Shown: piece after piece, positions 3,885 to 38,304 of the stretch | Position numbering within the stretch: position 1 is the stretch's first letter | Layout of the letters: each line of letters starts with the position of its first letter | IMG/VR virus record: IMGVR_UViG_3300005529_000062 | Coordinates: 1-43,866 of that record | DNA: 43,866 nt | Direction: 5' to 3' (one strand) | Source of the DNA: a virus | Translations under genes and position numbers: made by a program | The notes under the pieces: generated by a model | Database searches by the model: none | Told to the model about the DNA's origin: nothing | Seen by the model: only the letters and a program-made list of their open reading frames with translations

Positions 3885-5066
3885 ATGAAGGACATACTCG
3901 AAGCATTACGGGGCGACTTTGACATCGGCGAATCGATGTCCGCCCAGGCCGGCCGGGTCGCAGCATTTGAAGAGCGTTACGATGCCGTGCTCGAACTGCT
4001 CACCAACAAATCCATGCCCCGCTACGAGCGGTCGTACCGCATGCAGCGGGCTTTCCAGGAAGCCGAGAACCCCTCGGATTTCCCGATCCTGATGGGCACG
4101 GTCATTGACCGCCAGCTCCTGGCGAAATATCAGGCGGCAAGTCCCGACTGGCGCACGTACGTGAAAGTCGGCACCCAGCGCGACTTCCGTCCGCAGAACC
4201 TGATCGGCATCTACTCCCTGCAAGGCCAACTCCAGCCCGTGGCCTTACGCGGACCGTACATGGCCGACGAAGTGCTCGGCGAAGGCAAGGTCCAGATTCA
4301 AATCCAGAAGTACGGCGCCATCTTCCCGTTCGGTTGGGAAACGATGGTCAACGACGATCTCGGAGCATTCTCCGACATCGCCGAGCGTCTGGCGCTGCGC
4401 GCCCTGCGCACCGAGTATTTCCAGGCGACCTCGCTGTTTGTGAGCGCCACCGGACCGCATCCGTCGCTCTTCGGCGCACCCATCGTCCACCCCATCGACG
4501 GCAAGAACGTGACCAACGCCTTCACTGGGGCAAACGCCACCTTCAACATCACCAATCTCGGGCAGGCCGCGGCCATCATGCGCCGCTTTGTGGACGCCGA
4601 TGGTGAGCCGGTCATCTTCGACGGTTTCGATCTGGTGGTTCCGCCAGCGCTCGAAATCCCGATGCTCCAAGCCTTGAACCCCGCCAACATCATCCAGTCG
4701 GGCGGCGACGCCACTGCCGGAGCGAAGGCGATCATCCGCTCGTCTTCAAACACGGTGCCGCAACTGAACATCACCGGTCACGTCAATCCCTACTTGCCGA
4801 TCATCGACAAGTCCGGAAATGCCGACAAGACCTGGTACCTGTTCGGACGCATGGGCATGCAGTATGCGGTGCGCATGAACTTCCTGGCTGGCCATGAGTC
4901 GCCAGAAGTTGTGATGAAGAGCCCCAACAAAGTCACGCTCGGCGGCGGATTGTCGAACCCGACCGACGGCGACTTCGAGTCCGACGCGATGCAGTGGAGG
5001 GTGCGGCACATTCTGGGTGGAACCCAGGTGGATCCGCGCTACGCCACTTCCTACGTTGGCGCATAG
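3885..5066 (+). CDS. Major capsid protein
   Basis: 393 residues from the ATG at 3885, which follows an AGGAG Shine-Dalgarno (3870-3874). A longer reading from an upstream TTG would begin inside the terminator and is rejected. The protein has the layout of HK97-fold major capsid proteins of the Mu-gpT-like or related group: N-terminal helical arm, then a central domain with paired aromatic and Gly positions (YGAIFPFGWETMVNDDLGAF), and a C-terminal segment ending QWRVRHILGGTQVDPRYATS. It contains no cysteine, in contrast to the secreted cassette that follows. Its size, position after scaffold and decoration genes, and length fit the main shell protein. Confidence 0.85.
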   Translation: MKDILEALRGDFDIGESMSAQAGRVAAFEERYDAVLELLTNKSMPRYERSYRMQRAFQEAENPSDFPILMGTVIDRQLLAKYQAASPDWRTYVKVGTQRDFRPQNLIGIYSLQGQLQPVALRGPYMADEVLGEGKVQIQIQKYGAIFPFGWETMVNDDLGAFSDIAERLALRALRTEYFQATSLFVSATGPHPSLFGAPIVHPIDGKNVTNAFTGANATFNITNLGQAAAIMRRFVDADGEPVIFDGFDLVVPPALEIPMLQALNPANIIQSGGDATAGAKAIIRSSSNTVPQLNITGHVNPYLPIIDKSGNADKTWYLFGRMGMQYAVRMNFLAGHESPEVVMKSPNKVTLGGGLSNPTDGDFESDAMQWRVRHILGGTQVDPRYATSYVGA

Positions 5067-5076
5067 CTGTAAGTTT

Positions 5077-5152
5077 CGCCGGACCTGCTTAACCGAGCCC
5101 CTTCGTCCGGCGGGTAGATGGACCCGGAAACGGATCGCTCCGCCCGGGTCCA
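5077..5152 (+). promoter_or_regulatory. Two consecutive strong hairpins after the capsid gene
   Basis: The first stem is CGCCGGAC (5077-5084) with GTCCGGCG (5105-5112). The second is TGGACCCGG (5119-5127) with CCGGGTCCA (5144-5152), and it encloses a further CGGA/TCCG hairpin. Neither is followed by a clear T-run. They may act as RNA processing or stability elements, or as a weak terminator, separating capsid mRNA from the secreted cassette. Confidence 0.5.
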
Positions 5153-5198
5153 CTGCTTTCCGCGTGGAAATGTGAAAAACAGGGAGGAACCTACGAAA

Positions 5199-5939
5199 GT
5201 GAAGACTCTGAAAATTGCAGCAGTCATTCTCGCGCTCTCGCTCGGCGCTTTCGCCCAGCAAGCCATCGACCTTGAAACCGTCGGCACCTATCCTGGTACC
5301 GCCATCTCTACCGGGAACGGCACTGCAGGTGCGGGTGTCCAGCGCGTGACTATCGCGTCCGACAACACGGCATTCCAAATCAAAGCTCTTGGTAACGCTG
5401 GGGCAATCATCGACTTCGCTGGCCAGAACGCGAGTTCGCCAGCGAACGCGTGGTTGATCGGCGGCCAGTTCAACACCTCACCCACCACCATCACCAGTGG
5501 CAACGCTTCTCCGCTGCAACTCGATTCAAGCGGCAAATTGCTGGTCGATTGCGCCACTGGTTGCAGCGGCTCATCTGGAGTGTCGCTGGTTCCGCAGACA
5601 ACCGGAGGATTGACCCTTTTGCACATTGTTTCGGCGGCATCAACCAATGCCACTAGCACGAAAGCGTCCGCCGGGCAGGTCTACCACGTTTGCCTGAATA
5701 ACAATACGAGCTATCCAGTTTTTCTGAAGCTCTATAACAAAGCCACGGCACCAACGGTCGGAACCGACACTCCAGTCCATGTTCTCAAAGCTGACTCGGG
5801 CATTTCTTCCTGTGAGGCTACTGAAGAAGGGTACGCGTTTGGGACAGGTATCGCGCTGGCCCTGACCAAGGGAATCGCGGATACCGACAATACGGCAGTT
5901 GCACTGAATGATGCGACTGTTGAAGTGGCCTACAAATGA
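5199..5939 (+). CDS. Secreted protein with phage decoration-like domain
   Basis: 246 residues from the GTG at 5199, chosen because GGGAGG precedes it and because it places a clean signal peptide at the start (KTLKIAAVILALSLGAFA-Q, cleavage about 19/20). A farther upstream ATG at 5118 would bury that signal behind 27 polar residues. Residues 30-60 contain the phage virion motif GVQRVTIASDN. Residues about 140-246 are homologous to residues 3-106 of the protein at 9796-10539: both have H-[IL]-V-x-A, NN-x-x-Y, and GI-x-L-x-x-TKGIAD. The secreted copy has C165 and C205, which are absent from the other copy, as expected if it folds outside the cytoplasm. It heads a run of six coupled signal-peptide genes. 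Confidence 0.7.
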   Translation: MKTLKIAAVILALSLGAFAQQAIDLETVGTYPGTAISTGNGTAGAGVQRVTIASDNTAFQIKALGNAGAIIDFAGQNASSPANAWLIGGQFNTSPTTITSGNASPLQLDSSGKLLVDCATGCSGSSGVSLVPQTTGGLTLLHIVSAASTNATSTKASAGQVYHVCLNNNTSYPVFLKLYNKATAPTVGTDTPVHVLKADSGISSCEATEEGYAFGTGIALALTKGIADTDNTAVALNDATVEVAYK

Positions 5940-6349
5940 AGGCCGCAGTCTCAGTGTTTCTGTGGTTTCTCCCTATCGCCTGCGCTGCGCAGGCTCATCC
6001 TGCGCAGCCAGCAGTCCCTATCGGCCCGCCGCCAATTAGTTCGTCTATGGGAACTTACTACCCGCTGCCAGATGAGGTGCGGTCGAAGATCAGGGAAGTT
6101 CAATTCCAGCAATCCCAGTTGCGATTCGCCAATGAGAGCCTGATTCTCCAGATTGAGCAAAACCTTGATCGCCATCGCGATCTCGAAATGATTGCTGAGA
6201 TCGAGCAGAACCTTGAGCGCGAACGAGATTGCGTGGACGAAATAAAGAAAGCTGCTGGCGGATATGCGCTCGCCAATCACATCGATCTCAGCCTGTTTGA
6301 GCTCGACGCGACGCAGCTAAAACTCATTCCTAAGAAGAAAACGCAATGA
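5936..6349 (+). CDS. Secreted coiled-coil protein
   Basis: 137 residues, starting by an ATGA overlap. A signal peptide (MKAAVSVFLWFLPIACAA-Q) is followed by a Pro-rich segment (HPAQPAVPIGPPP) and then charged, helical sequence with heptad-like spacing (about 45-110), including two related IEQNL-[DE]-R stretches. The rest is a short polar tail ending in Lys residues. No family is recognised. A periplasmic rod or spacer is possible. Its existence is supported by stop/start overlaps with both neighbours. Confidence 0.65.
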   Translation: MKAAVSVFLWFLPIACAAQAHPAQPAVPIGPPPISSSMGTYYPLPDEVRSKIREVQFQQSQLRFANESLILQIEQNLDRHRDLEMIAEIEQNLERERDCVDEIKKAAGGYALANHIDLSLFELDATQLKLIPKKKTQ

Positions 6350-7569
6350 AACTTCTGCGAATTCTCGGCCCGCTCATTCTGCTTGCGATGCCGCTTTGTG
6401 CGCAGCAGATGGTATCGGTCGCCCAGCAAGCGCGCACTACTGGCACAATCACGACTTCTTCGACAAGCATTCCCGTTTCTACAGTCGGGTATTCTGTGGT
6501 AACCGTCACGGTCAACGGGACCTACGCAGGGATCACCGTCAACTTCGAATTCTCGGACGATGGTGGCACGACCTACTATTCCGATACTTGCACCCGCACC
6601 GACAGCAATGTGCAGGAGTCGAGCGAGGCTCTGCCTTCGAATCAAAGCCGAGCTTGGGATTGCGGAGTATTTGCGGCCACGAATTTCCGCGTCCGCTCCT
6701 CGGCTTACACTTCCGGCACAGCCAACATCGGCATCACGCTGAGCGCGGCCTCGATCGAGCCGGCGCAAACCGTCAGCGTCAGTGGAACAGTTCCCGTCAG
6801 TGGCACGGTGGCGGTCTCGAATGTGAACGCCAACGGCCAAGCGACAATGGCAAACTCCGCGCCGGTCGCGATTGCGTCAGATCAAAGCGCCGTTCCAGTC
6901 AAAGGTTCTCTCTCAAGCAACGGAGCGGCCGCTTCCTCAAATCGTGAGGCGGATTTACCTTGTATCGCACGCACCGACTTTCAAGGTGGAACCGCCGCGA
7001 CTGCCGGCCGCGATCTCGCGCCGGACTGCTCAACCGATGGCGCTCTCGCAGTCAATGTGCGACCGGCAATGCGACCGGCCAGCTATCACGCTTCGAAATC
7101 CTTCGCCGGATCGAGCACGACCGATAACGCAGTACTACCGGGGAACGCCTCCAACACAGTCCTGGTCACCGGGATTTATGTCTCCTGCACGCAGACGACG
7201 GCAGGAATGGTAACGCTCAACATCATCAAGCGCTCGACTGCCGACACAGCCGGAACGTCAGCTTCGATGACGGCCGTTCCCGATGATTCGAACTATTCGG
7301 CAGCGGTGAGCGCACCGCTGAGTTACACCGGAACCGGCCCGACAGCCGGAACTTCGGTTGGAAATCTCGATACCTATCAGCTCGGCTGCATGGCAAGCGG
7401 AACGGCTTCGCCGAACGATCTTTACATCATGCCGGGATTGCAGTTCAAACCAATCGTGCTGAGAGGAACGGCGCAACAGGTCGCAGTCAACTTCAACAAT
7501 GCGGCCATCACAGGCGGGACGGTCACGGTGACATTCGCCTGGCAGGAGATCACCACCATCACGCCGTGA
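6346..7569 (+). CDS. Secreted beta-rich protein with virion-type IASDQ motif
   Basis: 407 residues, starting by an ATGA overlap. Residues 1-19 are a signal peptide ending LCA-Q. Residues 40-135 form a beta domain with the SDDGGTTYY turn and FRVRSSAYTSGTA strand typical of metagenomic phage structural proteins. Residues 140-190 contain the low-complexity linker VSGTVPVSGTVAVS and NSAPVAIASDQSAVPVKG, a motif recurrent in phage virion proteins. The C-terminal half (about 235-407) is another beta-rich domain. There are six cysteines after the signal peptide, at similar spacing to disulfide-bonded exported proteins. The function is unknown; virion-type modules on a protein with an export signal are the oddity. 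Confidence 0.65.
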   Translation: MKLLRILGPLILLAMPLCAQQMVSVAQQARTTGTITTSSTSIPVSTVGYSVVTVTVNGTYAGITVNFEFSDDGGTTYYSDTCTRTDSNVQESSEALPSNQSRAWDCGVFAATNFRVRSSAYTSGTANIGITLSAASIEPAQTVSVSGTVPVSGTVAVSNVNANGQATMANSAPVAIASDQSAVPVKGSLSSNGAAASSNREADLPCIARTDFQGGTAATAGRDLAPDCSTDGALAVNVRPAMRPASYHASKSFAGSSTTDNAVLPGNASNTVLVTGIYVSCTQTTAGMVTLNIIKRSTADTAGTSASMTAVPDDSNYSAAVSAPLSYTGTGPTAGTSVGNLDTYQLGCMASGTASPNDLYIMPGLQFKPIVLRGTAQQVAVNFNNAAITGGTVTVTFAWQEITTITP

Positions 7570-8309
7570 AGAAGCTGATCTCAATTTGTGTGTTTGTCGG
7601 CTGTTTGTGCGCCGTAGCTGCCTTTGCCAGCACTCCGACCGTCATACAGAAAGCAGCCAAGAATTGCACCGCAACGACCACATGCGCCACGGCGTCGCTC
7701 ACGACCACGACCGGACACGCAAATCTCGTCGGTTGCGGTTCGAGTTCTACTACATCTACCCTTTCGGCAAGCGATGGTGGCACGAACAGCTATGTTGCGG
7801 TAGGAACGGCAAACACCACGCAAACCAGTGAAGGTTCGATGCGCTGGTTTGTGGCCAAGAACATCACCGGAGTCGCGCACACCGTAAGCTGCACCTCAAC
7901 CAATTCCGGTACCGTAGAAATATTTTTTTATGAAACCAGCGGAGCAGATACCGTAACGCCTGTCGATGTGCCGTCGACCACCAGCGGGGCCCCTGGCACA
8001 AGCGCAACTCCGTCGTTCACGCTGCCAGCTACTACCTTCGCGCATGATCTTTTGTTGTTCGCCTCGACCTGCGGCGCTAGTTGCTCAGCGGACGTCGCTG
8101 CCGATGCGGGCAACTCGCAGTCCGATGGTGCGGGCGACGAATCAGAAACTTACTCGAAAAGCGCGACGGGAACTTACACCGGACAGTTCAGTCAAACTTC
8201 GAGCACCTATATCGTTGTCGGCGTCGCCATCACAGATCGAGTCGCGGGCGGCGGTTCGGCGTCAGCGGCAAGCAAAAGCAATCGGTATTCACGGCTGGGA
8301 GTCAGATGA
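7566..8309 (+). CDS. Secreted beta-sandwich protein, related to tail adhesin modules
   Basis: 247 residues, starting at a GTG that overlaps the previous stop (GTGA). The signal peptide is MKKLISICVFVGCLCAVAAFA-S. The remaining sequence is Ser/Thr/Gly-rich beta structure with the order seen in the repeats of the 22688-24019 protein and in the inserted domain of the tail hub: a hydrophobic N-terminal strand, S-A-S-D-G-G-T-N-S-Y, an aromatic strand (MRWFVAKN), and a strand with F-Y-E-T-S-G. About six cysteines remain after cleavage. It ends YSRLGVR; the next protein also ends LRVR. The function is unknown; it is probably an exported adhesion or display module. Confidence 0.6.
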   Translation: MKKLISICVFVGCLCAVAAFASTPTVIQKAAKNCTATTTCATASLTTTTGHANLVGCGSSSTTSTLSASDGGTNSYVAVGTANTTQTSEGSMRWFVAKNITGVAHTVSCTSTNSGTVEIFFYETSGADTVTPVDVPSTTSGAPGTSATPSFTLPATTFAHDLLLFASTCGASCSADVAADAGNSQSDGAGDESETYSKSATGTYTGQFSQTSSTYIVVGVAITDRVAGGGSASAASKSNRYSRLGVR

Positions 8310-9250
8310 AATTACTCTGGATTTTCCTTATCTCAGCGTGCGCCTTCGCGCAGACCAACACTTGTGCTTCCGGCACGGACTCGACCGCGCAATGCCAGCC
8401 CGTAATCTTTCATCCCTGGAACCACGGTGGCTGGGCAGCCGTGCATCACGTCGGCGATCTGACCAACAGCGAAGTCTCCTGCTACAGCCCTGACATGGTC
8501 GCAATGGGCAACGGAGCTGTGAACGTGATGGCTACCTCGCAATCTGCAACCTGCAACGATGCCTTCGAAGGCTCGCACACCTTCTCGGTAAAAGCTGGGT
8601 TCCTCATCTGGTACAGCTACAGCATCCAGCTCGGCACCATTGAAGTTCGCACTCGCTTCGGAAACGTGCAGCCGAGAGACGCTGGAATCTGGGCGCAAGG
8701 CACCGACTGCCAAGGCGTCGATCTCGTGAACGCAGCGAACATCTCGCCGTGCAACTGGCCAAACGCTGGCAGCGAAGAACTCGATATCGCCGAAGCCCAC
8801 TGGCCGACAGAAGTATTTCCTGACCTGCTTCAAGACTTGACCAACTCAGGCGGGGCGCACGTTTGCACCGTGGACGCGCCTACCGACCCGACGCTCAACT
8901 TCCACACTTACAAAGTCGTGATGGGCGCTTCGAGCACCACCTGGTTCATTGATGGGACTCAGACCTGCACCCAGGCGGTTGGCACATCGAAAGGCGTCTA
9001 CCTGAAATTATCCGTGCAGGTCGAATCGGGAACGCTCTCCGGAACTCCCGGTGCCGATGTCACGCAGTATGTGAAGGTCACCGATCCAAACGGCAATGTC
9101 GTCTTCTTCGACGATTTCGTCAACCCAGTCGCCGCCTCAGCCGTGAAGCCGATGGCAAGGCTCGCGCGCCTGGCTGGCGGCTCGACATCTCCAACGACAG
9201 GCATTTTCACGCTTGGCATAGCCAAAAATGAAGGTTTGAGAGTCAGATGA
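8306..9250 (+). CDS. Secreted GH16-family glycoside hydrolase
   Basis: 314 residues from the ATG at 8306, which overlaps the previous stop and starts a signal peptide (MKLLWIFLISACAFA-Q). The ISAC stretch could alternatively act as a lipobox with C12. The catalytic signature of GH16, E-x-D-x-x-E, is present as E158-L-D160-I-A-E163, preceded by W-P-N-A-G-S-E. Upstream is the family's conserved strand GTIEVRTRFGNVQPRDAGIWA (109-130 region), and downstream the FHTYKVVMGASSTTWFIDGT strand. GH16 enzymes cleave beta-1,3/1,4-glucans, agarose, carrageenan or related polymers; substrate cannot be told from sequence. Many cysteines suggest disulfides. It is placed inside the phage structural module and coupled to other exported proteins. 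Confidence 0.8.
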   Translation: MKLLWIFLISACAFAQTNTCASGTDSTAQCQPVIFHPWNHGGWAAVHHVGDLTNSEVSCYSPDMVAMGNGAVNVMATSQSATCNDAFEGSHTFSVKAGFLIWYSYSIQLGTIEVRTRFGNVQPRDAGIWAQGTDCQGVDLVNAANISPCNWPNAGSEELDIAEAHWPTEVFPDLLQDLTNSGGAHVCTVDAPTDPTLNFHTYKVVMGASSTTWFIDGTQTCTQAVGTSKGVYLKLSVQVESGTLSGTPGADVTQYVKVTDPNGNVVFFDDFVNPVAASAVKPMARLARLAGGSTSPTTGIFTLGIAKNEGLRVR

Positions 9251-9792
9251 AAAAGTTCGGATTTGCAATCGCGTTGCTTCTTTCGATCGGCGCATGGTGC
9301 GCAACCATCAAGCCCAGCTACCGCGCGACCAATACGTCGATGACGGTCACCTCGCTGAATTCTCTGGCGAACTCGACGAGCGCATCCACTGGAATCTGGG
9401 GATCGGCGGCGGTCGACAATACGACGAACCTCGATGTCGACGAGCTGGTCACGGTTCAGCTCACCAGCGGCGCCTCGGGAGTGAGCGCAAGCGGCAACGC
9501 CTTGATCTATGTCTATGGATGCATCGCTGGAACCACGACTTGCACCGATGGCATGAGCGGTTCGCAGGGAACGCAGACAATCACCAACCCAACAAATTTG
9601 ATACTGGCCTACACCTGCAACATTGTCGCCAACGCCACGGTCTACACTTGCGGACCTTTCTCTGTCGCCAATGCTTTCGGCGGAGTCGTCCCTGGCAAAT
9701 GGGGCGTTGTGGTTCGCAATCAGAGCGGCGCTGCTTTAGCAGCCAGTGGCAATTCCGTGCTCTACGATTCGCTGCAGATGATCTCGCAATAG
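9247..9792 (+). CDS. Secreted small beta-rich protein
   Basis: 181 residues, starting by an ATGA overlap and preceded by a GAGTCAG stretch identical to that before the GH16 gene. The signal peptide is MKKFGFAIALLLSIGAWCA-T. The mature part is Ser/Thr/Ala-rich with strands ending in a W-G-V-V-V-R-N-Q-S-G segment, and has four cysteines, including a pair in GCIAGTTTCTDG. No enzymatic motif is visible. It is the last of the six signal-peptide genes; the next gene starts four bases on and lacks a signal. Confidence 0.6.
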   Translation: MKKFGFAIALLLSIGAWCATIKPSYRATNTSMTVTSLNSLANSTSASTGIWGSAAVDNTTNLDVDELVTVQLTSGASGVSASGNALIYVYGCIAGTTTCTDGMSGSQGTQTITNPTNLILAYTCNIVANATVYTCGPFSVANAFGGVVPGKWGVVVRNQSGAALAASGNSVLYDSLQMISQ

Positions 9793-9795
9793 TCC

Positions 9796-10539
9796 ATGCC
9801 CAACTTCCACCTAGTAGCCGCTGACGGAACCAACGCGAACTCCATTCAGGCCGCTCCAGGTTCTGTCTCGCAGTACCGCATCACCAATAATGCCGGGTAC
9901 AAAATCTTCGTCAAATTCCACGACACAGCATCCGTCCCAACTCCAGGTGTTGGGGTCATCTTCACGATTGGAGTAGAAGCCAGCCTCAACGATTTCGATG
10001 ACATTGATCTCGATTTCACGCATGGCATCGGGCTCACCATTACCAAAGGCATTGCGGACGATGACACCACGCCAATCGTAGCGGGCGACTGCGTCGTAGA
10101 CATCACCTACGCGCCAGCCTCGGCAGGATCGGGCAGTTCGGGTTCCGGAAGCGGTTCCGCAAGCCTCGGCGTGAATGCCTTGCGCATTCTCTTGAACGAT
10201 CAAAGCGCGGTCGAATTCACCGACAGCGAACTGCAGACCTTTTTGGACATCGCGCAATTCAGTGGCACACTCGATGACAGCGCCTTATTTCTCGCAGCAT
10301 CGCTTGGCACGAATTCGCTGGTCGTAAAATACGGGTCGATTCCCGTACAGGAAGTATCGATCGGCGGCTTCCAGACGAGCGCCGGACGGACGCAGGTCCG
10401 ATACCTCGAATCCCAGGCTGACCGCTTCTACCAGCTCTATATCGACGCTCCCGCCTTCGCCATCGCAGAAGACAATCTCTCCGCCTTTAACGAGTTGGCC
10501 ATTCTGCGTAACTGGATTCTGCGGACGCAGTTGCCATGA
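9796..10539 (+). CDS. Decoration-like domain fused to head-tail adaptor
   Basis: 247 residues without a signal peptide. Residues 3-106 match the C-terminal domain of the secreted protein at 5199-5939 (HLVAADGTNAN, ITNNAGYKIFVKFH, HGIGLTITKGIADDDTT). Residues 108-123 are a Gly/Ser linker (AGSGSSGSGSGSAS). Residues 126-247 resemble a gp6-type head-tail connector: ALRILLNDQSAVEFTDSELQ, then an Ala-rich helix and a C-terminal helix with W-I-L-R. Such adaptors bind below the portal. The combination suggests a surface or collar domain tethered to the neck. The domain homology is clear by eye; the adaptor assignment is moderately sure. Confidence 0.6.
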   Translation: MPNFHLVAADGTNANSIQAAPGSVSQYRITNNAGYKIFVKFHDTASVPTPGVGVIFTIGVEASLNDFDDIDLDFTHGIGLTITKGIADDDTTPIVAGDCVVDITYAPASAGSGSSGSGSGSASLGVNALRILLNDQSAVEFTDSELQTFLDIAQFSGTLDDSALFLAASLGTNSLVVKYGSIPVQEVSIGGFQTSAGRTQVRYLESQADRFYQLYIDAPAFAIAEDNLSAFNELAILRNWILRTQLP

Positions 10540-10718
10540 GTAACGGCGTAAAGAGTAAGCCGAACGGCAAGGCAATGCAGCAGTTGGCGCTGGTGCTTTC
10601 GGACTCGCAACTGGATGCTCTGATGAACGGCGAGCGCGTCACCGTTCGGCTGGGCGAGATCGAATTGACGATCCGCGTGGATTACACCGCACCCGCTTAT
10701 TCGCTGGGAGAAGCATAA
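10536..10718 (+). CDS. Small hypothetical protein in neck operon
   Basis: 60 residues, starting by an ATGA overlap. A basic N-terminus is followed by LALVLSDSQLDALMNGERVTVRLGEIELTIRV, a helix then two amphipathic strands. No family is recognised. Coupling to the adaptor gene and close spacing (3 bases) to the next gene argue that it is real. Confidence 0.5.
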   Translation: MSNGVKSKPNGKAMQQLALVLSDSQLDALMNGERVTVRLGEIELTIRVDYTAPAYSLGEA

Positions 10719-12225: not shown

Positions 12226-12783
12226 ATGGGAACCGTTGCAAATATCACCACTGGCCCGAGCAATCTGTTTATCGCGCCCTCGGGCACGGCCTTGCCGACA
12301 CTCACCGGCAGCGCCACCGATTTCGTTAACTTCACCCCGTCCGGTTTCACCCAGGACGGAGTGGAATGGGATTATACCCCGACCTGGAAAGACATCATGG
12401 TCGACGAGCTGTTGGGACCGGCCAAGAAGAAGCTCACCGGGCACAAACTGCTGGTCAGCGCCAAGCTTGCCGAAACCACGCTGCAAAACCTGAATCTCGC
12501 GATTGCAGCTTCGACGCTGGTCAGTTCGACCGTGCTGACTATTGGCTCGCTCGAAGAGGCGCCGGAGTTCATTCTCGGCTGGATGGGGCCATCCCCGAAT
12601 GGCGGAACCCGTCAAGCACTGGTCGATCGCGTGGTCTCAATCGCCGCCACCAAGGCGCACTATCAGCGCAAGGACATGGCGGTATATCAGGTGCAGTTCG
12701 AAGCCCTGGCCGATGCCACTCAGGTTACCGCTGCCGACCTTGCCACCTACAAGGACTTTGCGACTCCGTTCGTGCTGAGCTAA
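12226..12783 (+). CDS. Major tail tube protein
   Basis: 185 residues with a good Shine-Dalgarno (CAGGAGA) before the ATG. The sequence has the tube-protein pattern of an N-terminal strand with FTPSGFTQDGVEWDYTP, a TWKDIMVDELLGPAKKKLTG loop, and a C-terminal strand VYQVQFEALAD. No cysteines. Its position between tail terminator and chaperone genes, and its length, fit the subunit that stacks as hexamers along the tape measure. Confidence 0.7.
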   Translation: MGTVANITTGPSNLFIAPSGTALPTLTGSATDFVNFTPSGFTQDGVEWDYTPTWKDIMVDELLGPAKKKLTGHKLLVSAKLAETTLQNLNLAIAASTLVSSTVLTIGSLEEAPEFILGWMGPSPNGGTRQALVDRVVSIAATKAHYQRKDMAVYQVQFEALADATQVTAADLATYKDFATPFVLS

Positions 12784-24181: not shown

Positions 24182-25675
24182 ATGAAGACCCTGATCGCAC
24201 TCACCAGTTGCCACGCCTACCGCGACCGCGCGGACTCGATCCGCGAAACCTGGGCGCAAGAGATTGGCGAGCGGGCCGACTTCCGCGTGTTTCTCGGGGC
24301 TGGCGAGGCCAAACGTCCCGATGAAGTCACGCTGGACTGCCCCGACGGCTATCACTACCTCTCAGCCAAAACCCAACTGATCCGGCGTTGGGCACTCAAG
24401 CACGGCTACGAGTTCGTTTGGAAGGTGGATGACGATTGCTATCTGCGACCGGAACGTCTCTTCGCCAGCGGACTGAATGCCTACGACTACGTAGGCAGAT
24501 TGCGCGGGCCATCGGGGAACTACGCCAACCCCTACTGCTCGGGCTTCTGCTACGGAACCAGCAGAAAAGCTTTGGAGCTATTGGCGCCGCTTGACTGGGA
24601 CGCCTCGGACGATTTCTCGGAAGATCGTTGGACGGGAAACCAGCTCATGCGCTTCGGCATTACCCCGTTTAATGCTACCCAGATGATCGTCGAGTATTCG
24701 AAGAATTCCGCCATCAGCGGCCGCGAACCACCGCTTGCCGGCAATTCCGTGATTGCCTCCTGCGAATATCGGCCTGATCTCATGCGGCGGGTGCATGAGC
24801 AGTTCAAATCGGGGAAGCGTTCGGCAATGGGCGAGTTCGTCCGTCCGCAAGGTTCACTCAGCCGTGTGGCCATCATGATTAAGACCTTCCTGCGCGATGG
24901 CTATTTGTTCCGCTGCCTAGAAGGCCTCGAAAAGAACTTTCCCGAATCGAAGATCGTCGTAGTCGATGACGGCCATGAGTCAGGCAAGGGATCGCCCTAC
25001 AACAAAATTAGCAAGTACGCCGACCTCAGGGCGAAGCAACACGCCTGCATCTGGCTGCCCTTCGATTCAGGCTTCGGCGCGAAAGCCAACGCCGCGATTC
25101 CCGAGTGCATGAAAAAAGAATACGTGCTGATCGGCTCGGATGACTTCGACTTCAACGACCCGAACGTGCGGCCAGGAGTCGAAGCCATGCAGAAGGTGCT
25201 CGATGCGGTTCCGAGTCTCGGGCTGGTGAGTGGGCGAGTCGATAACAATCCCTATGAGTTCTGCTGGGAGCCATTCGAGCGCGGACTGAAAGAAGTCCCC
25301 AAGTATCACGGCACTGGACACGTCAACGGAACGACTTATCACTTGTGTGATTTGACGGTGAACTATTCGCTGGTGCGGACGAAAATCTTCGATCCGCAAT
25401 TCGGCGGCATCAGGTGGGACGGCGGACAGGTGAAGATCGGCGGAGGAGAACACTCGGCCTTCTTCATTGACTTGCAACGCAGCTATTGGTCCGTGGCCTA
25501 CGTCGAAGGTGCCAACATCAACCAGATGAAGTTCTCGCCCTTCGAGAAAGCGCAACGCCAGCACAAGGGCTACGACGAGATGCGGGCGCGGGCAAGGAAA
25601 CCGGGAAGGCCTTGTCTGAAGGAAAGAGGCATTGATACTTACATCTTGGGAGATGGGACGGTGGAGATTTCATGA
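24182..25675 (+). CDS. Two-domain glycosyltransferase, GT31-like plus GT12/GT2-like
   Basis: 497 residues from the ATG at 24182. The N-terminal domain (1-215) follows GT31 beta-1,3-glycosyltransferases: SCHAYRDRADSIRETW, FRVFLGAG, YLSAKTQLIRRWAL, and a DDD metal motif at 83-85 (WKVDDDCY). The C-terminal domain (226-497) is a second GT-A fold: RVAIMIKTFLRDGYLFRCLE, IVVVDDGHESG, GSDDFDF at 318-324 and GGEHSAFFIDL at 421-431, close to the D-x-D and H-E-x-x-F-F pattern of GT12/B4GALNT-type enzymes. It could add two sugars in sequence to a virion protein, host glycan or modified base. Acceptor unknown. Confidence 0.7.
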   Translation: MKTLIALTSCHAYRDRADSIRETWAQEIGERADFRVFLGAGEAKRPDEVTLDCPDGYHYLSAKTQLIRRWALKHGYEFVWKVDDDCYLRPERLFASGLNAYDYVGRLRGPSGNYANPYCSGFCYGTSRKALELLAPLDWDASDDFSEDRWTGNQLMRFGITPFNATQMIVEYSKNSAISGREPPLAGNSVIASCEYRPDLMRRVHEQFKSGKRSAMGEFVRPQGSLSRVAIMIKTFLRDGYLFRCLEGLEKNFPESKIVVVDDGHESGKGSPYNKISKYADLRAKQHACIWLPFDSGFGAKANAAIPECMKKEYVLIGSDDFDFNDPNVRPGVEAMQKVLDAVPSLGLVSGRVDNNPYEFCWEPFERGLKEVPKYHGTGHVNGTTYHLCDLTVNYSLVRTKIFDPQFGGIRWDGGQVKIGGGEHSAFFIDLQRSYWSVAYVEGANINQMKFSPFEKAQRQHKGYDEMRARARKPGRPCLKERGIDTYILGDGTVEIS

Positions 25676-26256
25676 AACCCATCGTCCTCATCGCCTCTTG
25701 TGGGCGTGACCGCGCTGGGCAGGAATCGCAAGCCGCACTCTTGCGCGGAGTCATCGACTATCGCTTCGTGCTCGGTGCTGGCAATTCCAACGCAATCGAA
25801 GACGAACTGATCCTTCCCGTGCGTGATGACTATTTAGCACTCCCCGTCAAGATGCGGGCAGCGTTCCGCTGGGCACTGGAGCATGAATACGACTACGTCT
25901 TCAAATGCGACCGCGACACCTTCCTTCATGTCGACCGGTTGCTCGCTTCTGGCCGTGAACATGCGCAAGCGGGAGATGACTTCGTTGGACTGGTGGGCAA
26001 TCCTGGCGATTGCTGCGGCGGCGGGGCGGGTTACTGGCTTTCAAGAACAGCCATCATCGCCTATCTCGAAAGCTATGACGAACGTCAGCTCGCACTCAGC
26101 CCACGTCAGCAACTGGAAGACTGGTGCCTGTTCTGGTCGCTGGATCGTGCGAACCCGCGTATCTCGCCGGTTTGCGACCGAAGATATTGGGATTTAAGAC
26201 TCGGGCCTGTGCCTGATCCGGAGACGAACATCACATGGAATCCGTGGAAACCATAA
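25672..26256 (+). CDS. GT31-like glycosyltransferase, short
   Basis: 194 residues, starting by ATGA overlap. It matches the N-terminal domain of the upstream enzyme: IVLIASCGRDRAGQES, DYRFVLGAG, LALPVKMRAAFRWAL and a D-x-D motif at 80-82 (FKCDRDTFLHVDRL). A CCGGGAGYWLS segment probably lines the acceptor site, as the equivalent GGPGYWLS does in the third copy. Short for the family but apparently complete. It overlaps the methyltransferase gene by 22 bases. Confidence 0.65.
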   Translation: MKPIVLIASCGRDRAGQESQAALLRGVIDYRFVLGAGNSNAIEDELILPVRDDYLALPVKMRAAFRWALEHEYDYVFKCDRDTFLHVDRLLASGREHAQAGDDFVGLVGNPGDCCGGGAGYWLSRTAIIAYLESYDERQLALSPRQQLEDWCLFWSLDRANPRISPVCDRRYWDLRLGPVPDPETNITWNPWKP

Positions 26257-26861
26257 GCGAAGTGAAAACCGCCGAACTCATCGACAAAGCCTTCTCCTTC
26301 GGCATGATCCAGGTGCGCGACGAGATTACTGCGTTTGTCGAGTTCCTGAAACAGCGTCCACTGCGAAACGTAATGGAGATTGGTTCGGAATCGGGTGGAA
26401 CCTTCTATCTCTGGACGCAACTCGCGAAACTCGGCGGACTGAAAATCTCGCTCGACAAGCCGGACGGAGAATCGGGGAGTTGGCTCTACAAGGAACCTGA
26501 CGCGCTGGCCAAGCGCACGGCTTTGTTTCAGTCCTTCGCGCCGCGAGTGAAAGTGGTTACCGGAGACTCGCACTCCCCAGAAATCAAACAACAAGTCGCG
26601 GACATTCTCGGCCAAGAGAAACTGGATTTCCTCTTCATCGACGGCGATCACTCCTACGAAGGCGTGAGAGCCGACTGGGAGATGTATCGCGAGTTTGTGC
26701 GTGAAGGTGGAATTGTGGCCTTCCACGATATCCAGCACTTGGGGCCGAAAGTGTTGTGGAAAGAGCTGGCGGACGAAATGACGTTTAAGGATCGCGTATT
26801 CAAGATGCGCGAGTTCAATTCGCGCTTGCACTGGGCGGGGATTGGCGTCATTGAGTTGTGA
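26235..26861 (+). CDS. Class I SAM methyltransferase, CmcI/Methyltransf_24-like
   Basis: 208 residues. SAM-binding motif I is VMEIGSESGGTF (47-57), followed by LKISLDKPDG, VVTGDSH and the family signature LDFLFIDGDHSYEGVRADW (130-148), then GGIVAFHDI with H164 and D165. This is the CmcI / rhamnosyl O-methyltransferase type, which methylates sugar hydroxyls using a metal held by Asp/His residues. Between glycosyltransferases, it probably O-methylates the glycan they build. Start chosen as the ATG at 26235, overlapping the upstream gene. Confidence 0.7.
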   Translation: MESVETISEVKTAELIDKAFSFGMIQVRDEITAFVEFLKQRPLRNVMEIGSESGGTFYLWTQLAKLGGLKISLDKPDGESGSWLYKEPDALAKRTALFQSFAPRVKVVTGDSHSPEIKQQVADILGQEKLDFLFIDGDHSYEGVRADWEMYREFVREGGIVAFHDIQHLGPKVLWKELADEMTFKDRVFKMREFNSRLHWAGIGVIEL

Positions 26862-27538
26862 GTCTCTCTGATCTCCAGATTGAGGCCAACTTTCCTCTGT
26901 TGGCCTCGGCCACGGTTCTGCTCGATCGCAAACTGCGGCAAGGGAAGTACGACCGCATCCTGCTTTCGGCGCGTGACTGTTACATGCAAGCCCATCTCTG
27001 GCGACAGATGTTTCCGTCAACGCCCTACCAGGTCATCTATTGGCTCACCAGCCGCTGGGCGCGGATCAAGGGATTGAACGGTTACTTGGATTACTGTGCG
27101 CCGCTTTTTCGCGGTAAGCCCTTGATCTTCGACCTGGTCGGGACTGGAGAATCCATCCGGACGTTATTCAAGCGCATGGGAGTCGATTGCGACTACCTGC
27201 TCTTGCAGAGCGATCCTCGCAAACAAGCGCCGCGCTTGCTCGATGCCGAAGGCGATCTCGAAGGATTGAACACCGCGCCTCACCCGATGGTGATTGATGT
27301 AACCGCCCACGCCTGGCCAGTCTATGACCCATCCGGCAACGACGGAGCAGACTATTTCGCCGCGATTGGTGGTCGAGTGTTCATGGAAAACTCGAAACGT
27401 CCGCACTATTCGGACTTTATCGACGCCAGCGAAGCCGAACTGCTCGCGAGAATGCGCCAGGCGCAGAAGCTGATTGCAGAGAACGACTGCCTGTTCCATC
27501 CCTTCCACGCCCAGCGGCGAGCGGAGGATTGGCAGTGA
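26858..27538 (+). CDS. Unknown protein, HAD- or PRTase-like
   Basis: 226 residues from a GTG overlapping the previous stop (GTGA). It has YDRILLSARDCYM, VIYWLTSRWARI, a LIFDLVGTGESIRTLFKRMG segment and LLLQSDPRK. The S-A-R-D ... S-R ... D-x-x-G-T-G-x-S order resembles the C-terminal part of predicted HAD-superfamily hydrolases of glycan gene clusters and, less well, the PRPP loop of phosphoribosyltransferases. No single motif decides. Its place between methyltransferase and glycosyltransferase genes suggests a role in sugar precursor or glycan modification. Confidence 0.4.
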   Translation: MSLSDLQIEANFPLLASATVLLDRKLRQGKYDRILLSARDCYMQAHLWRQMFPSTPYQVIYWLTSRWARIKGLNGYLDYCAPLFRGKPLIFDLVGTGESIRTLFKRMGVDCDYLLLQSDPRKQAPRLLDAEGDLEGLNTAPHPMVIDVTAHAWPVYDPSGNDGADYFAAIGGRVFMENSKRPHYSDFIDASEAELLARMRQAQKLIAENDCLFHPFHAQRRAEDWQ

Positions 27539-28239
27539 AATACCTCGTCGCCATCAGCAGTTGTTACGACTTCGAAAAGAACCGCAACAACGACGCCATG
27601 CGGGACACCTGGCTGCCTGATCTTCAAAGGTTCGGCGTCGATTACCGCTTCTTTTTCGGAGTCGGCCAGGGCGCCGAAAGCACAAGGCTCAAGCATGACT
27701 GCGTACTACTGCCATCGGTTGAAGATGACTACGGCCACCTGACCTACAAGACCCGCGCCTCGCTTGGCTGGGCCTTCGTACACGAATACGACTTCGTCTT
27801 CCGCTGCTTCCCTGACACCTACGTGCGCGTGGATCGGCTGATGACCTGTGGCTTTCAGAACTTCGATTACTACGGTGACTTCCGCGGCGATCCTTCAACC
27901 AATGAAGTCACTCATCAGAAAGCCCAGAACTATGCCTCGGGCGGACCTGGCTACTGGCTTTCAAAGCGCGCCTATTCGCTTTTAATCAGCGCTCCGGTGC
28001 TGGGCGTGTGGCGGGATGAAATCACTCCCTACACGGAAGATTTGTGGTGCGGAAATATTCTAGGGCGGCATCTCGAACTGAAACTCAAGTACTTCGATGA
28101 CACCAAGCGCTTCATCAACCGAGGCAGCCGCTCCTGGCCGACTCCGGAAAATGACGTAATTACGTCGCATCTTTCCTGCCCCGAGAAATACACGCCCGAG
28201 TTCATGTACGCGGCCCATCAGCCGTGGAGGAAGCGATGA
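27535..28239 (+). CDS. GT31-like glycosyltransferase, degenerate metal motif
   Basis: 234 residues from GTG at 27535, which overlaps the previous stop and follows GGAGG; a TTG six bases earlier is less likely. It is a third paralogue: LVAISSCYDFEKNRNND, MRDTW, DYRFFFGVGQG, LTYKTRASLGWAF. The position of the D-x-D motif reads RCFPDTYVRVDRL (F92-P93-D94), so the first Asp is lost. ASGGPGYWLSKRAYSLL is well kept. It may use another residue for metal, be inactive, or act as an assembly partner of the other two enzymes. Confidence 0.6.
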   Translation: MKYLVAISSCYDFEKNRNNDAMRDTWLPDLQRFGVDYRFFFGVGQGAESTRLKHDCVLLPSVEDDYGHLTYKTRASLGWAFVHEYDFVFRCFPDTYVRVDRLMTCGFQNFDYYGDFRGDPSTNEVTHQKAQNYASGGPGYWLSKRAYSLLISAPVLGVWRDEITPYTEDLWCGNILGRHLELKLKYFDDTKRFINRGSRSWPTPENDVITSHLSCPEKYTPEFMYAAHQPWRKR

Positions 28240-32027: not shown

Positions 32028-33191
32028 ATGAACGAAGAGATGCGAGGAGACGGTACGGTCTATCGCCAAAAAGGATCGCGGTTCTGGTGGATCTCGTATT
32101 GGAAGACGAAGAACGGCAAGCGTACGCGCGTACGCGAATCCTCGCAGTCAGAGCAATATCAAGTCGCCCGCGATCTTCTTGCTGAGCGCCGCGCCGAGCA
32201 AATTTTCCCTGTCGCTACTTCGCCTGTCATTTCAGATTCCACGCCCGAGACCGTAACTATTGCCGAGCTTGTCGCCGATCTCATCGAGTGGTACGCCAGC
32301 GAAAACCCAAGACCGACATTCAAGAAAGACACTGAGTCGCGATGGAAGCTTCATCTCAAAGTAGCCTTTGGAGAATTGAAGGCCTCTGAACTCGGAACCG
32401 CCCATCTACGGGCCTATCGAACCAAGCGTTCGCAAGAAAAGGCCGCCTTCGCTACCATCAACCGCGAACTGCAGGTCATTCGCAAAGCCTTCAAGCTGGC
32501 AGCCGAAAGCGAACCGCCAAAAGTGTTGCGCATTCCGAAATTCAAAGGAGCGATCGGCAAGGAGAAAAATGCGCGCAAGGTTTTCGTCGATCCACTCACG
32601 CTAAAAAATCTGAGAGAAGCCGCCAGCAAGGAAGGCCTGTGGGCGAGAGTGTTCGTAGAAATGATGTTCCTCTTCGGCTGGCGCAAGGGCGAAATCGAAC
32701 CGATGTGCGTTTCAAATGTCCGGCTGGCAGAGAACACGATTCGCATCGAAGACTCGAAAAATGGAGAGCCGCGGGAAGTCGATATGCCAGAGTATCTGCG
32801 CGTCTTGATCCAGCCGCTCGTCATCGGTCGGAAGCCCAGCGAACCGCTGTGGCCAGTTCGCCAGTTCCGCTATGCCTGGAAGCGCATCTGCAACGCCGCC
32901 GGAGTAAAAGCAGGCAAACTGGAAGGCTTCGTGATGCACGATGCACGTAGGACCTCGGCGAAGATCAAGCGCGCCGCCGGCGTCTCGGAATCGGTGATTA
33001 TGGACATCCAGGGCTGGAAGACCTCGGCTCAGTTTCGGCGCTACGGAATTGTCGATCAGGCGGATCGCAGGCAGGCGCTAGAGAAAGAGCAGCAGTTCCT
33101 CACGGAAGCCGAAAGGCGCATCCGACAGGCGAAGCAGATCGAGATATTCGGACTCCAACTGACAGAGAAAACGCCACAGCCGACCCACTGA
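32028..33191 (+). CDS. int: Tyrosine-type site-specific integrase
   Basis: 387 residues. The N-terminal arm-type domain (1-70) is basic with W-W-I-S-Y-W; the core-binding domain spans about 75-165; the catalytic domain has R219 (FGWRKGE), K244 (SKNGEP), H304 and R307 (MHDARRTS), W330 (GWKTSAQF) and the nucleophile Y339 (RRYGI). The set is complete, with Trp in the common His/Trp position. GGAGG precedes the ATG closely. It catalyses integration and excision, so the element is or was temperate. The downstream non-coding region with repeats and tRNA-derived sequence is the likely attP. Confidence 0.9.
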   Translation: MNEEMRGDGTVYRQKGSRFWWISYWKTKNGKRTRVRESSQSEQYQVARDLLAERRAEQIFPVATSPVISDSTPETVTIAELVADLIEWYASENPRPTFKKDTESRWKLHLKVAFGELKASELGTAHLRAYRTKRSQEKAAFATINRELQVIRKAFKLAAESEPPKVLRIPKFKGAIGKEKNARKVFVDPLTLKNLREAASKEGLWARVFVEMMFLFGWRKGEIEPMCVSNVRLAENTIRIEDSKNGEPREVDMPEYLRVLIQPLVIGRKPSEPLWPVRQFRYAWKRICNAAGVKAGKLEGFVMHDARRTSAKIKRAAGVSESVIMDIQGWKTSAQFRRYGIVDQADRRQALEKEQQFLTEAERRIRQAKQIEIFGLQLTEKTPQPTH

Positions 33192-35352: not shown

Positions 35353-35540
35353 ACGGACGCATGGAACGCTACGACGGACTGCTGGAAACCTACCGCGAGA
35401 ACGACTACTCCGGCGTGAACTTCTTTTTCGAAGAGCAGCGCGCGGCCAAGTGGAAAGGCATTGTGGCCGACTGCCTGCGGATTGGCTTCGTCTGGGGAAT
35501 GGTTTGGCTAATCATCTGGGGCGCGGGGAAGGCATTGTGA
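35349..35540 (+). CDS. Small single-span membrane protein
   Basis: 63 residues starting by ATGA overlap. A polar N-terminal half and one membrane helix at about 43-61 (LRIGFVWGMVWLIIWGAG). It ends by GTGA overlap with the helicase-methyltransferase gene. No family recognised. Confidence 0.5.
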   Translation: MNGRMERYDGLLETYRENDYSGVNFFFEEQRAAKWKGIVADCLRIGFVWGMVWLIIWGAGKAL

Positions 35541-38146
35541 CCTACGAAGAGTTCATTGCGGGGAAGGTCGACTTCGAGCACTCGTGCGGACTGCCGTGCG
35601 AACCCGAAGAGATCAATCCGCTACTCAAGCCGCACCAGCGCGACATCGTGCAGTGGGCGATACGCGGAGGGCGAAGGGCGATCTTTGCCGCCTTCGGACT
35701 GGGCAAGACTTTCATCCAGCTAGAAATCGGGAAACTGATATCGGAGAAAACTCAGCAGCCATTCCTGATCTGTGCGCCGCTCGGAGTGCGCCAGGAGTTT
35801 CGCCGAGATGCCGAGAAATTGGGGATTCAAGGCATGGCTTTCGGCAAGTCAACCGAGGAATTGCTGAATCGAACTCGTCCCCAAATTTGCCTCACTAACT
35901 ACGAATCCGTGCGGGATCGCAAGATCGACGTGAGTCTTTTCGCCGGCATCTCGCTCGATGAAGCCTCGATCCTCCGCGGCTTCGGCGGCACCAAGACCTT
36001 CCGCGAAATGATGCGGCTATTTGAAGGCTCAGGCAAATATCGCTTCGTCGCGACCGCAACACCTTCGCCCAACGAGTACATCGAACTGCTGGCCTATGCC
36101 GCATTTCTTGACGTGATGGATGTCGGTCAGGCGAAGACCCGCTTCTTTAAACGCGATTCGACCAAAGCCGACTCGCTTACACTTCATGCCCACAAAGAGC
36201 GGGAATTCTGGCTATGGGTTTCTTCCTGGGCGATCTTCTTGCAGAAACCTTCTGATCTCGGCTATTCGGACGAAGGCTACTCGCTACCTGACCTCGAAGT
36301 CTATTGGCATGAGGTTCCGAGCGATCACAAGGGCGCCGGATTCGAAACCTCTGGACAGGGCAAGCTGCTACGAAATGCAGCCATCGGCGTGACCGATGCG
36401 GCAGCAGAAAAGCGTAATTCACTGCCAGCGCGAATTCAGAAGTTGATGGAGCTGCGCGCGCTTGATCCAGACGCGCATCGGCTGATCTGGCACGATCTCG
36501 AAAGCGAACGCAAGGCCATTGAAGATGCGCTGCCGGTAAACCAGATGCGCTTCGACAAATCGATCGCAGCCGCAACCGTGTACGGCAGTCAAGACCTTGA
36601 CGAGCGCGAACAGATCATCCTCGACTTCTCGGACGGCAAGATTCAAGAGCTAGCCGCGAAGCCAGTGCTGGCCGGTTCAGGCTGCAACTTTCAGTACCAC
36701 TGCTCCTGGGAAATCTTCCTTGGCATCGGCTTCAAGTTCAACGACTTCATTCAGGCGGTGCATCGCTGCTACCGCTTCCAGCAGACCGAGCGTGTCCGCG
36801 TTGACCTGATCTACACCGAAGCCGAGCGCGAGATTCGCAGGAATCTAGAGCGCAAGTGGGAACAACACAAAGAACTGACCGCGCAAATGAGCGACATCAT
36901 TCGCCAGTACGGACTGGCCTCCGAGGCCCTGGCGCACGAATTGAAGCGTTCAATCGGCGTTCAGCGAAGCGAGATTGAAGGCGAGAACTTCCGGATAGTC
37001 AATAACGACTGCGTTCTTGAAGCGCGATCGATGCAGTCCGAAAGCATACATCTGGTCCTGACCTCGATTCCTTTCTCCACCCAGTACGAATACACGCCCT
37101 CCTATAACGACTTCGGGCATACGGATTCGAATCAACAGTTCTTCGAGCAGATGGATTATCTGACCCCGCAACTGTATCGCCTGCTCAAGCCCGGGCGCAT
37201 AGCCGCGATTCATGTGAAGGATCGCATTATGCCGAGCGGACTCACCGGACTGGGATTCCAAACCCTTTATCCGTTTTCCGATGAAACCGTGCGGCACTTC
37301 ATCAAGCACGGCTTCGGTTTCCTAGGTCGCAAGACTATCGTCACCGACGTAGTGCGGGAGAACAATCAGACCTATCGCCTGGGTTGGACTGAGCAATGCA
37401 AAGACGGAACGAAGATGGGCTACGGTTTGCCGGAATATCTTCTTCTCTTCCGCAAGCCGCCGACGGATCGCTCGAACGGCTACGCCGACGAGCCAGTGGT
37501 AAAAAATAAGACCGACTACACGCGCTCTCGCTGGCAAATCGACGCTCACGGCTTCGCCAGGTCCTCGGGCAATCGCCTGCTTTCCGCACAAGAGATCGAA
37601 GGTTTAAAGCACGAACAAATCTTCAAGCTCTTCCGCAAATACTCGCAATCGAGCGTCTACAACTTCGAGAACCATGTCGCGCTCTCAGAATCCTTAGAGC
37701 GCTGCATGGACTGCAAGCACATTCACACTGGCGACAAGAAGTGCGATGAGTGCGATTGTCCCAAGGCTGGCGGGCGGCTGCCGGTAACCTTCATGCTCCT
37801 GCAGCCGGCGAGCTGGCACCCAGACGTATGGACTGACATTACGCGAATGCTCTCGCTTAATTCGGCGCAATCGGCCAGCGGCCGCGAGATGCATCTCTGC
37901 CCATTGCAGTTCGACTTGGCGGATCGAGTCATCACCCAGCTTTCGATGCCGGGGGAAGTTGTCATGGATCCATTTGGCGGCCTGATGACGGTTCCACTGC
38001 GGGCGATCAAACTCAAGCGCTACGGGATCGGGGTTGAACTCAACACACGCTACTTCCTCGATGGCGCGGCCTACTGTAAAGCCGAAGAGCAGAGGCAGGC
38101 TATTCCCGATTTATTTGCAGCCGAAGAACTGGAGGCGACCGCATGA
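35537..38146 (+). CDS. SNF2-like helicase fused to DNA methyltransferase
   Basis: 869 residues from the GTG at 35537, which overlaps the previous stop; upstream in-frame codons run through another gene. Helicase part: Walker A GLGKT (54-58), D-E-A-S (141-144), ATATP (172-176) and motif VI Q406-A-V-H-R-x-x-R413. Methyltransferase part: motif IV at 509-513 reads TSIPF followed by QYEYTPSYNDFGHTD; motif I is at the C-terminal end, DPFGG (811-815), so the order is that of beta-class N4/N6 amino methylases. A Cys cluster (CMDCKH, CDECDC) sits between. No restriction endonuclease gene is nearby. It may protect phage DNA from host restriction. Confidence 0.8.
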   Translation: MTYEEFIAGKVDFEHSCGLPCEPEEINPLLKPHQRDIVQWAIRGGRRAIFAAFGLGKTFIQLEIGKLISEKTQQPFLICAPLGVRQEFRRDAEKLGIQGMAFGKSTEELLNRTRPQICLTNYESVRDRKIDVSLFAGISLDEASILRGFGGTKTFREMMRLFEGSGKYRFVATATPSPNEYIELLAYAAFLDVMDVGQAKTRFFKRDSTKADSLTLHAHKEREFWLWVSSWAIFLQKPSDLGYSDEGYSLPDLEVYWHEVPSDHKGAGFETSGQGKLLRNAAIGVTDAAAEKRNSLPARIQKLMELRALDPDAHRLIWHDLESERKAIEDALPVNQMRFDKSIAAATVYGSQDLDEREQIILDFSDGKIQELAAKPVLAGSGCNFQYHCSWEIFLGIGFKFNDFIQAVHRCYRFQQTERVRVDLIYTEAEREIRRNLERKWEQHKELTAQMSDIIRQYGLASEALAHELKRSIGVQRSEIEGENFRIVNNDCVLEARSMQSESIHLVLTSIPFSTQYEYTPSYNDFGHTDSNQQFFEQMDYLTPQLYRLLKPGRIAAIHVKDRIMPSGLTGLGFQTLYPFSDETVRHFIKHGFGFLGRKTIVTDVVRENNQTYRLGWTEQCKDGTKMGYGLPEYLLLFRKPPTDRSNGYADEPVVKNKTDYTRSRWQIDAHGFARSSGNRLLSAQEIEGLKHEQIFKLFRKYSQSSVYNFENHVALSESLERCMDCKHIHTGDKKCDECDCPKAGGRLPVTFMLLQPASWHPDVWTDITRMLSLNSAQSASGREMHLCPLQFDLADRVITQLSMPGEVVMDPFGGLMTVPLRAIKLKRYGIGVELNTRYFLDGAAYCKAEEQRQAIPDLFAAEELEATA

Positions 38147-38304
38147 GGCTCCTGATCCTCGCTCCGGTCGCGATCATTTTGACGGTGATTGCTATTGGCC
38201 TGATGCGTGGCTGGATCATCACCTGGGGCAGTTTTAGCGATGCCGAGTTAGAGGAAATGGGCGTGAAGTTTGGAAGAAAGGAATTCGATGGCGACAACGA
38301 TTGA
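38143..38304 (+). CDS. Small membrane protein
   Basis: 53 residues, read from the gap, starting by ATGA overlap. One membrane helix at about 3-28 (LILAPVAIILTVIAIGL), then a charged tail containing ELEEMGVKFGRKEFDGD. It overlaps the next gene by 17 bases. No family recognised. Confidence 0.5.
   Translation: MRLLILAPVAIILTVIAIGLMRGWIITWGSFSDAELEEMGVKFGRKEFDGDND

Follow-up and report, generated by a model that had tools for sequence, protein, structure and literature searches.

A set of six consecutive genes (g1 to g6), located between the capsid and neck genes of an uncultured, Acidobacteriota-type soil phage is, judged from its sequences, a recurring module common to phages with unrelated capsids, and no annotation accident. 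The phage occupies a window of 43,866 nucleotides (the whole stretch of DNA analysed), which is the whole IMG/VR virus record IMGVR_UViG_3300005529_000062. Export of this coherent block is well supported by the conservation of the block, by the parity of its cysteines, and by an exported domain family (YVDPC) with four invariant cysteines. The block proteins resemble virion appendage proteins and look like exported relatives of these, not evidently like host-derived effectors. We give about an even chance to the explanation that phages exchange the block horizontally as a module, and that it encodes Sec-exported, probably disulfide-bonded forms of appendage proteins together with a GH16-like enzyme, made late and working with the virion outside the cytoplasm. 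Within this explanation, the conserved module, signal peptides, cysteine parity, appendage relatives and neck pairing are read from sequence.

The phage and its six-gene block

The window phage is siphovirus-like and probably temperate, since it encodes a tyrosine integrase, along with a Phage_capsid_4 major capsid protein (MCP), a cement protein, a tape measure protein and a lysozyme. A metagenome-assembled genome from the Bryobacterales (Acidobacteriota, Terriglobia) contains a close relative of this MCP (58%; L071) and so indicates a host within the phylum Acidobacteriota, phage-contig binning alone being weak evidence. Here, L-numbers denote compared loci, among them relatives of g1, g3 and the MCP, and all relatives are uncultured or assembled sequences. 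SP denotes a Sec-type signal peptide, and both gene calls and SP calls were obtained with home-made scripts, not SignalP. The main features are as follows, with the mature cysteines (Cys) counted by eye:

3822 or 3885-5066, + strand: MCP, Phage_capsid_4 (PF25209, E=1e-31)
5067-5198, + strand: intergenic leader from MCP to cassette, two strong hairpins, no T-run (RNA fold -54.7 kcal/mol, z=-2.9)
5199-5939, + strand: g1, GTG start with upstream SD-like GGAGG; SP; IASDN; C-terminal jelly-roll domain g1C (residues ~137-246); 4 mature Cys
5936-6349, + strand: g2, SP (weakest); small, charged, probably helical or coiled-coil; 1 mature Cys
6346-7569, + strand: g3, SP; N-terminal virion-type repeats with NGQATMANSAPVAIASDQSAVPV; C-terminal domain g3C; 6 mature Cys
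7566-8309, + strand: g4, GTG start; SP; minor-tail-protein-like beta domain; C-terminal SRLGVR; 6 mature Cys
8306-9250, + strand: g5, SP; GH16-like glycoside hydrolase with putative catalytic motif ELDIAE; 8 mature Cys
9247-9792, + strand: g6, SP; beta-rich-looking; 4 mature Cys after cleavage at WCA^TI
9796-10539, + strand: neck adaptor (Ad1) with a non-exported g1C domain fused N-terminally (residues 4-105) via a Gly/Ser linker; 32% identity to the g1 C-terminus
32028-33191, + strand: tyrosine integrase (PF00589, E=5e-12)

As a preliminary description of this DNA had stated, the six genes (5199-9792) run without interruption from capsid to neck and are coupled by overlaps: each of the five junctions is a 4-base overlap (ATGA or GTGA), the following gene begins at 9796, and the block has the MCP upstream and the neck adaptor downstream. 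The leader hairpins are possibly an attenuator, an mRNA stabiliser or a recombination boundary. No + strand sigma-70-like promoter was detected in positions 4900-10600 of the window; host promoters may differ from the sigma-70 type. These features bear on lysogenic conversion, in which the cassette would be expressed by the prophage and the host surface changed. The integrase, the related SP genes in Terriglobia genome assemblies and the position of L251 on a 2-Mb contig are consistent with such a role, but the coupling of the genes within a structural operon and the lack of a detected promoter argue against it, and we consider it improbable. Hence, where the preliminary description had proposed export in late infection or lysogeny, its export part has held, while expression in lysogeny is not favoured despite the integrase.

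Evidence for export

A heuristic scan of the whole window for n-, h- and c-regions with AxA sites found SP-like starts in all six block genes, in agreement with the earlier claim of a Sec-type signal on each; the predicted cleavage sites are of the types AFA^QQ, AFA^Q and AFA^ST, and the weakest signal is that of g2. Outside the block, the scan flags just two window genes, at 35349 and 38143, both low-scoring or TM-like, and the contiguity of six SP genes among the 56 window genes has a permutation p of 1e-4. No canonical lipobox was seen by eye in g1-g4 and g6, such that the small-lipoprotein character of Llp/Cor-type superinfection exclusion was not found in them. A lipobox-like ISAC at residues 9-12 of g5 is atypically short, and an AFA^Q site is present in g5 too. 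The assignment of g2 as an o-spanin or lipoprotein was rejected, as no lipobox was visible by eye.

Secreted, disulfide-bonded proteins tend toward even cysteine numbers. The count is even in five of the six block proteins, with g6 taken as cleaved at WCA^TI. The cysteine-free nature of the capsid and tube proteins, noted previously, was confirmed, since no Cys occurs in the MCP, the tail tube (12226-12783) or the tape measure; there are two in the cement protein. Across 28 loci, which were picked for SP genes and not for cysteines, the runs of SP genes have an even count in 69 of 76 Cys-bearing mature proteins (binomial p=3e-14, a guide only, since related sequences are not independent), compared with 115/235 among the non-SP proteins of the same loci. 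In five of the seven SP proteins with odd counts, a Cys occupies position +1 or +2, which hints that the cleavage site was misplaced. A weaker effect (36/47) was obtained in an earlier test that included the Stenotrophomonas loci L093 and L094; the SP runs behind the MCP of these two loci look like lysis-type small TM/SP genes, and were not counted as relatives. Within the g1C family, the mean number of Cys is 1.9 in SP+ copies vs. 0.55 in non-SP copies (p=4e-6, again a guide, given the relatedness of the sequences), and 12 of the 13 SP+ copies having Cys have an even count. Of the 18 proteins in the YVDPC family, 16 scored SP+ and the remaining two have SP-like N-termini, and the alignment contains four invariant cysteines at 21-53% identity to its first row. 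Taken together, the signal peptides and the cysteine parity point to periplasmic folding.

It might be supposed that these N-termini are no secretion signals but hydrophobic stretches that remain uncleaved on ordinary virion proteins assembled in the cytoplasm, as the domains are of virion type and SP-less related proteins are common. Such a view is at odds with the n-h-c structure and its AxA sites, with the cysteine parity (69/76), with the Cys pairs specific to SP+ g1C copies and with the invariant Cys of the YVDPC family, and is, in our opinion, very improbable.

Appendage relatives, recurrence and the neck partner

The motifs IASDN (g1) and IASDQSAVPV (g3), correctly noticed earlier as virion-type, also occur in non-exported phage virion-type proteins, and one non-exported protein with a block-type motif matches PHROG 1645 ‘virion structural protein’. 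The g1C domain is modelled with confidence as a jelly roll (C-terminal domain pLDDT >93), for which Foldseek matches include viral jelly rolls, plant-virus coat proteins, the HFTV1 turret, the KHP40 cement protein and many phage proteins, among them collagen-type fibres. Weak relatives of the g1 domain occur in cultured phages, those of Caulobacter and others, and the one inspected has no SP. The g4 model is moderate (pLDDT 61, pTM 0.64), with phage minor tail proteins as structure matches, and the C-terminal LGV motif of g4 is found in non-SP phage proteins adjoining non-SP g1C genes as well. A C-terminal LLGVG/RLGV motif is seen in g4, L029, L053, L056, L062 and L191, in exported and non-exported appendage-type proteins, often beside a g1C gene. 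No match to g6 was found in protein-family searches, and no relative of g3, g4, g5 or two YVDPC proteins was found in 50,697 cultured-phage records.

One gene had been described as a GH16 enzyme, which we soften to a GH16-like hydrolase with probable family membership. The catalytic ExDxxE motif is in place in g5 (SEELDIAEAHW) and aligns with EIDIME of the laminarinase LamCAT; the GH16 matches in Pfam, NCBIfam and PDB are all sub-threshold, that to Pfam PF00722 (E=0.002, 18.1 bits) being below the curated cut-off of 22. By its motif and sub-threshold profile match, g5 resembles phage depolymerases and the laminarinase-carrageenase family, but it differs in being a separate exported gene in the capsid-neck interval, and not a domain of a tailspike. 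Searches of IMG/VR, cultured phages and 396 genomes of the phylum Acidobacteriota yielded no g5 relatives. An origin of the block as host-derived secreted genes was set aside, g2 and g5 being unmatched in these 396 genomes; without a positive control, this negative result carries little weight.

The core order g1-g2-g3C-g4 is present in the window and in L112, which has the same capsid family, as well as in L187 and L188, which have an HK97-type MCP (that of L187 matches PHROG 10, E=2e-51); L186 has g1-g2, plus a g3C match at a contig end. Since the same core order stands on Phage_capsid_4 and HK97-type backbones, the set appears to move between phage backbones. In the core cassettes of L016, L112, L186, L187 and L188, g1 is followed by g2, and g3C is 67-71% identical in L112 (L185) and L186-L188, each copy inside an SP-gene block. 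A sigma-70-region-2 protein is inserted between g1 and g2 of the L188 cassette (9094-9555).

The slot of the block varies. A check of homologue neighbourhoods for the order of capsid, secreted block and neck, proposed in the preliminary description, recovered this order in L007 and L004 (contig ends) and in the genomic locus L250, and other slots elsewhere. In L112, L113, L115, L016 and L186-188 the slot is after tail completion, the SP genes of L112, L113 and L115 (MCP 58-60% identity) lying between the tail-completion gene and the tail tube, and in L003 and L117 (MCP 43-45% identity) two or three SP genes lie upstream of a prohead-protease-like gene. No SP block was seen in the MCP relatives L110, L111, L002 and L116 (57-62% MCP identity). 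Members of the g1C or YVDPC family also stand alongside additional SP genes in other SP runs (L017, L050, L052, L192, L198 and L204). Outside the window, SP proteins have matches to PHROG 10356, 27494, 863 and 454 (tail-fibre and virion families), an L017 SP protein has a ‘tail fiber assembly’ PHROG match (E=7e-24), and L052 SP proteins match virion structural families. YVDPC matches occur in 14 of 399 Terriglobia genomes, several of them in phage-like contexts, including an SP-YVDPC gene between capsid-like and neck-like genes in L250.

The pairing of the exported g1 domain with a non-exported sister on an adjacent neck protein was missed by the preliminary description, as were the exported-appendage nature of the block and its sharing by unrelated capsids. 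In the window, a non-SP g1C, about 32% identical to the exported one, is fused to the neck adaptor immediately behind the block. In L112, L113, L115 and L186-L188, the gene just ahead of the block encodes a tail-completion-type protein that ends in a non-SP g1C. This domain is preceded by the module GxGAPxxLHNNxDxYYDxxxGNLYEQ..W.LVGNIP.GGG.EM, with a Met resembling a relic start codon at the junction; in L016 it is a free-standing gene. Fusion of g1C to a neck or tail-completion protein is found in 7 of 11 loci with SP core genes vs. 1 of 77 connector-bearing loci without, a count that rests on few independent lineages (two capsid backbones); the single exception, L071, is the same phage as L113, and its SP gene is probably frameshifted. 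In the g1C tree, connector copies and exported core copies are sister clades (98/86 and 99/95), and the SP g1 copies of L112 and L187 are near each other, and not near their own connector copies. No g1C match was found in the records of the related phages L110, L111, L002 and L003, which have no SP g1 gene, and the SP blocks of L003, L007 and L117 are without connector fusion. In moving from one backbone to another, the SP set seems not to have taken its connector along, and this, together with the identity of only ~32% between the exported and connector copies of the window, falls short of tight co-evolution.

Possible roles outside the cytoplasm

Tailed-phage particles are thought to assemble in the cytoplasm and, to our knowledge, the known virion appendages are made and assembled there without signal peptides. 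The block proteins are like neck, tail and head appendages (whiskers, turrets, cement and minor tail proteins) in the g1C jelly roll, the g4 minor-tail fold and the membership of SP proteins elsewhere in PHROG tail-fibre and virion families, but differ from them in their Sec-type signals and even cysteine counts. In the explanation that we prefer, the module would consist of a jelly-roll neck or decoration domain (g1), a minor-tail-fold protein (g4), g2, g3, g6 and a GH16-like polysaccharide hydrolase (g5). From the coupling to structural genes we infer late synthesis, such that the co-translated products would reach the periplasm late in infection and undergo oxidative folding there, and lysis would bring the exported proteins and released virions together. 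The non-exported, neck-fused g1C most likely marks where or with whom the exported proteins act; they would join, or cooperate with, the neck appendage of the particle outside the cytoplasm, and the g5 hydrolase would clear surface polysaccharide. The pairing with the neck-fused g1C is the main reason for proposing that the exported proteins work with the particle; mimicry of a common target, or common descent within few lineages, could account for it as well. Docking outside the cell faces dilution at lysis, which counts against it, and we know of no precedent for it in tailed phages. As a general strategy, tailed phages of diderm bacteria might route some appendage proteins (adhesins, fibres, hydrolases) via Sec, for disulfide folding in the periplasm and mounting on particles, with the neck-anchored sister domain as the dock. 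We offer this only tentatively; a point in its favour is that the only fibre-like genes seen in the stretch of L052 that was read carry signal peptides.

Lambda Lom, an exported phage moron near tail or receptor-binding genes, belongs to the systems closest to the block. Phage morons (lambda Lom, T5 Llp and Cor lipoproteins) are likewise phage-encoded and envelope-exported, and some adjoin tail or receptor-binding genes (Llp: PMC9586334). The known cases, however, are single genes, expressed early or from the prophage, whereas in the window six coupled genes for appendage-type proteins form one block, whose core has a fixed order. No description of a comparable exported cassette was found in the open PMC literature.

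The main rival to docking is that the proteins are envelope or matrix effectors that never attach to the virion: exported adhesin-like domains would occupy host receptors, in the periplasm or in debris, and thereby block superinfection and progeny loss, and the GH16-like enzyme would dissolve matrix, freeing progeny. The Sec signals and the GH16-like gene fit this, and virion-anchored and exported sister copies of one domain fit receptor mimicry. T5 Llp, an exported periplasmic phage protein that blocks its receptor, is a precedent, and superinfection-exclusion proteins also stop adsorption to lysed cell fragments (PMC9586334). Nevertheless, many superinfection-exclusion proteins are made early (PMC9586334), whereas the block lies inside a structural operon, and the cassette is mostly structural-type beta protein. 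Moreover, the SP g1 copies of L112 and L187 are close to one another but not to their own connector copies, and a second g1C is absent from some phages with SP runs. On balance, we judge the effector role a real possibility, though less likely than docking.

The recurrence of a mobile appendage-type set with export signals and even cysteine numbers suggests that some phages deliberately place such proteins outside the cytoplasm, either for completing particles after lysis or for acting on host surfaces. The g1C, g2, g3C, g4 and YVDPC families are provided as testable protein families, and may bear on the adsorption, escape and spread of phages of abundant, hard-to-grow soil Acidobacteriota. 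They also call for caution in soil viromes, in which ‘secreted auxiliary gene’ calls may be appendage genes.

Several further arrangements were observed. In the podovirus-like L052 (5062-12930), consecutive SP genes occupy the usual tail-fibre position, with no non-SP fibre in the stretch read. L239-L242 and L244-L246, from Terriglobia genomes, have a recurrent order of a small virion-like gene, a YVDPC protein, a beta-helix- or g4-like protein (often SP), a small TM protein and terminase, i.e., a second exported-gene arrangement, upstream of terminase. In the window itself, a SNF2-like helicase fused to an N6/N4 methyltransferase is encoded at 35537-38143, and a DUF5131 protein and a HerA-like ATPase at 38288-39139 and 40733-41932, respectively. 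Behind the tail genes and directly before the lysozyme, glycosyltransferase-like genes, broken up by other genes, are found at 24182-28239 (TIGR00180-type at 24182, Galactosyl_T at 27535, and 25672 resembling them by eye), with a possible role in virion or host-surface glycosylation.
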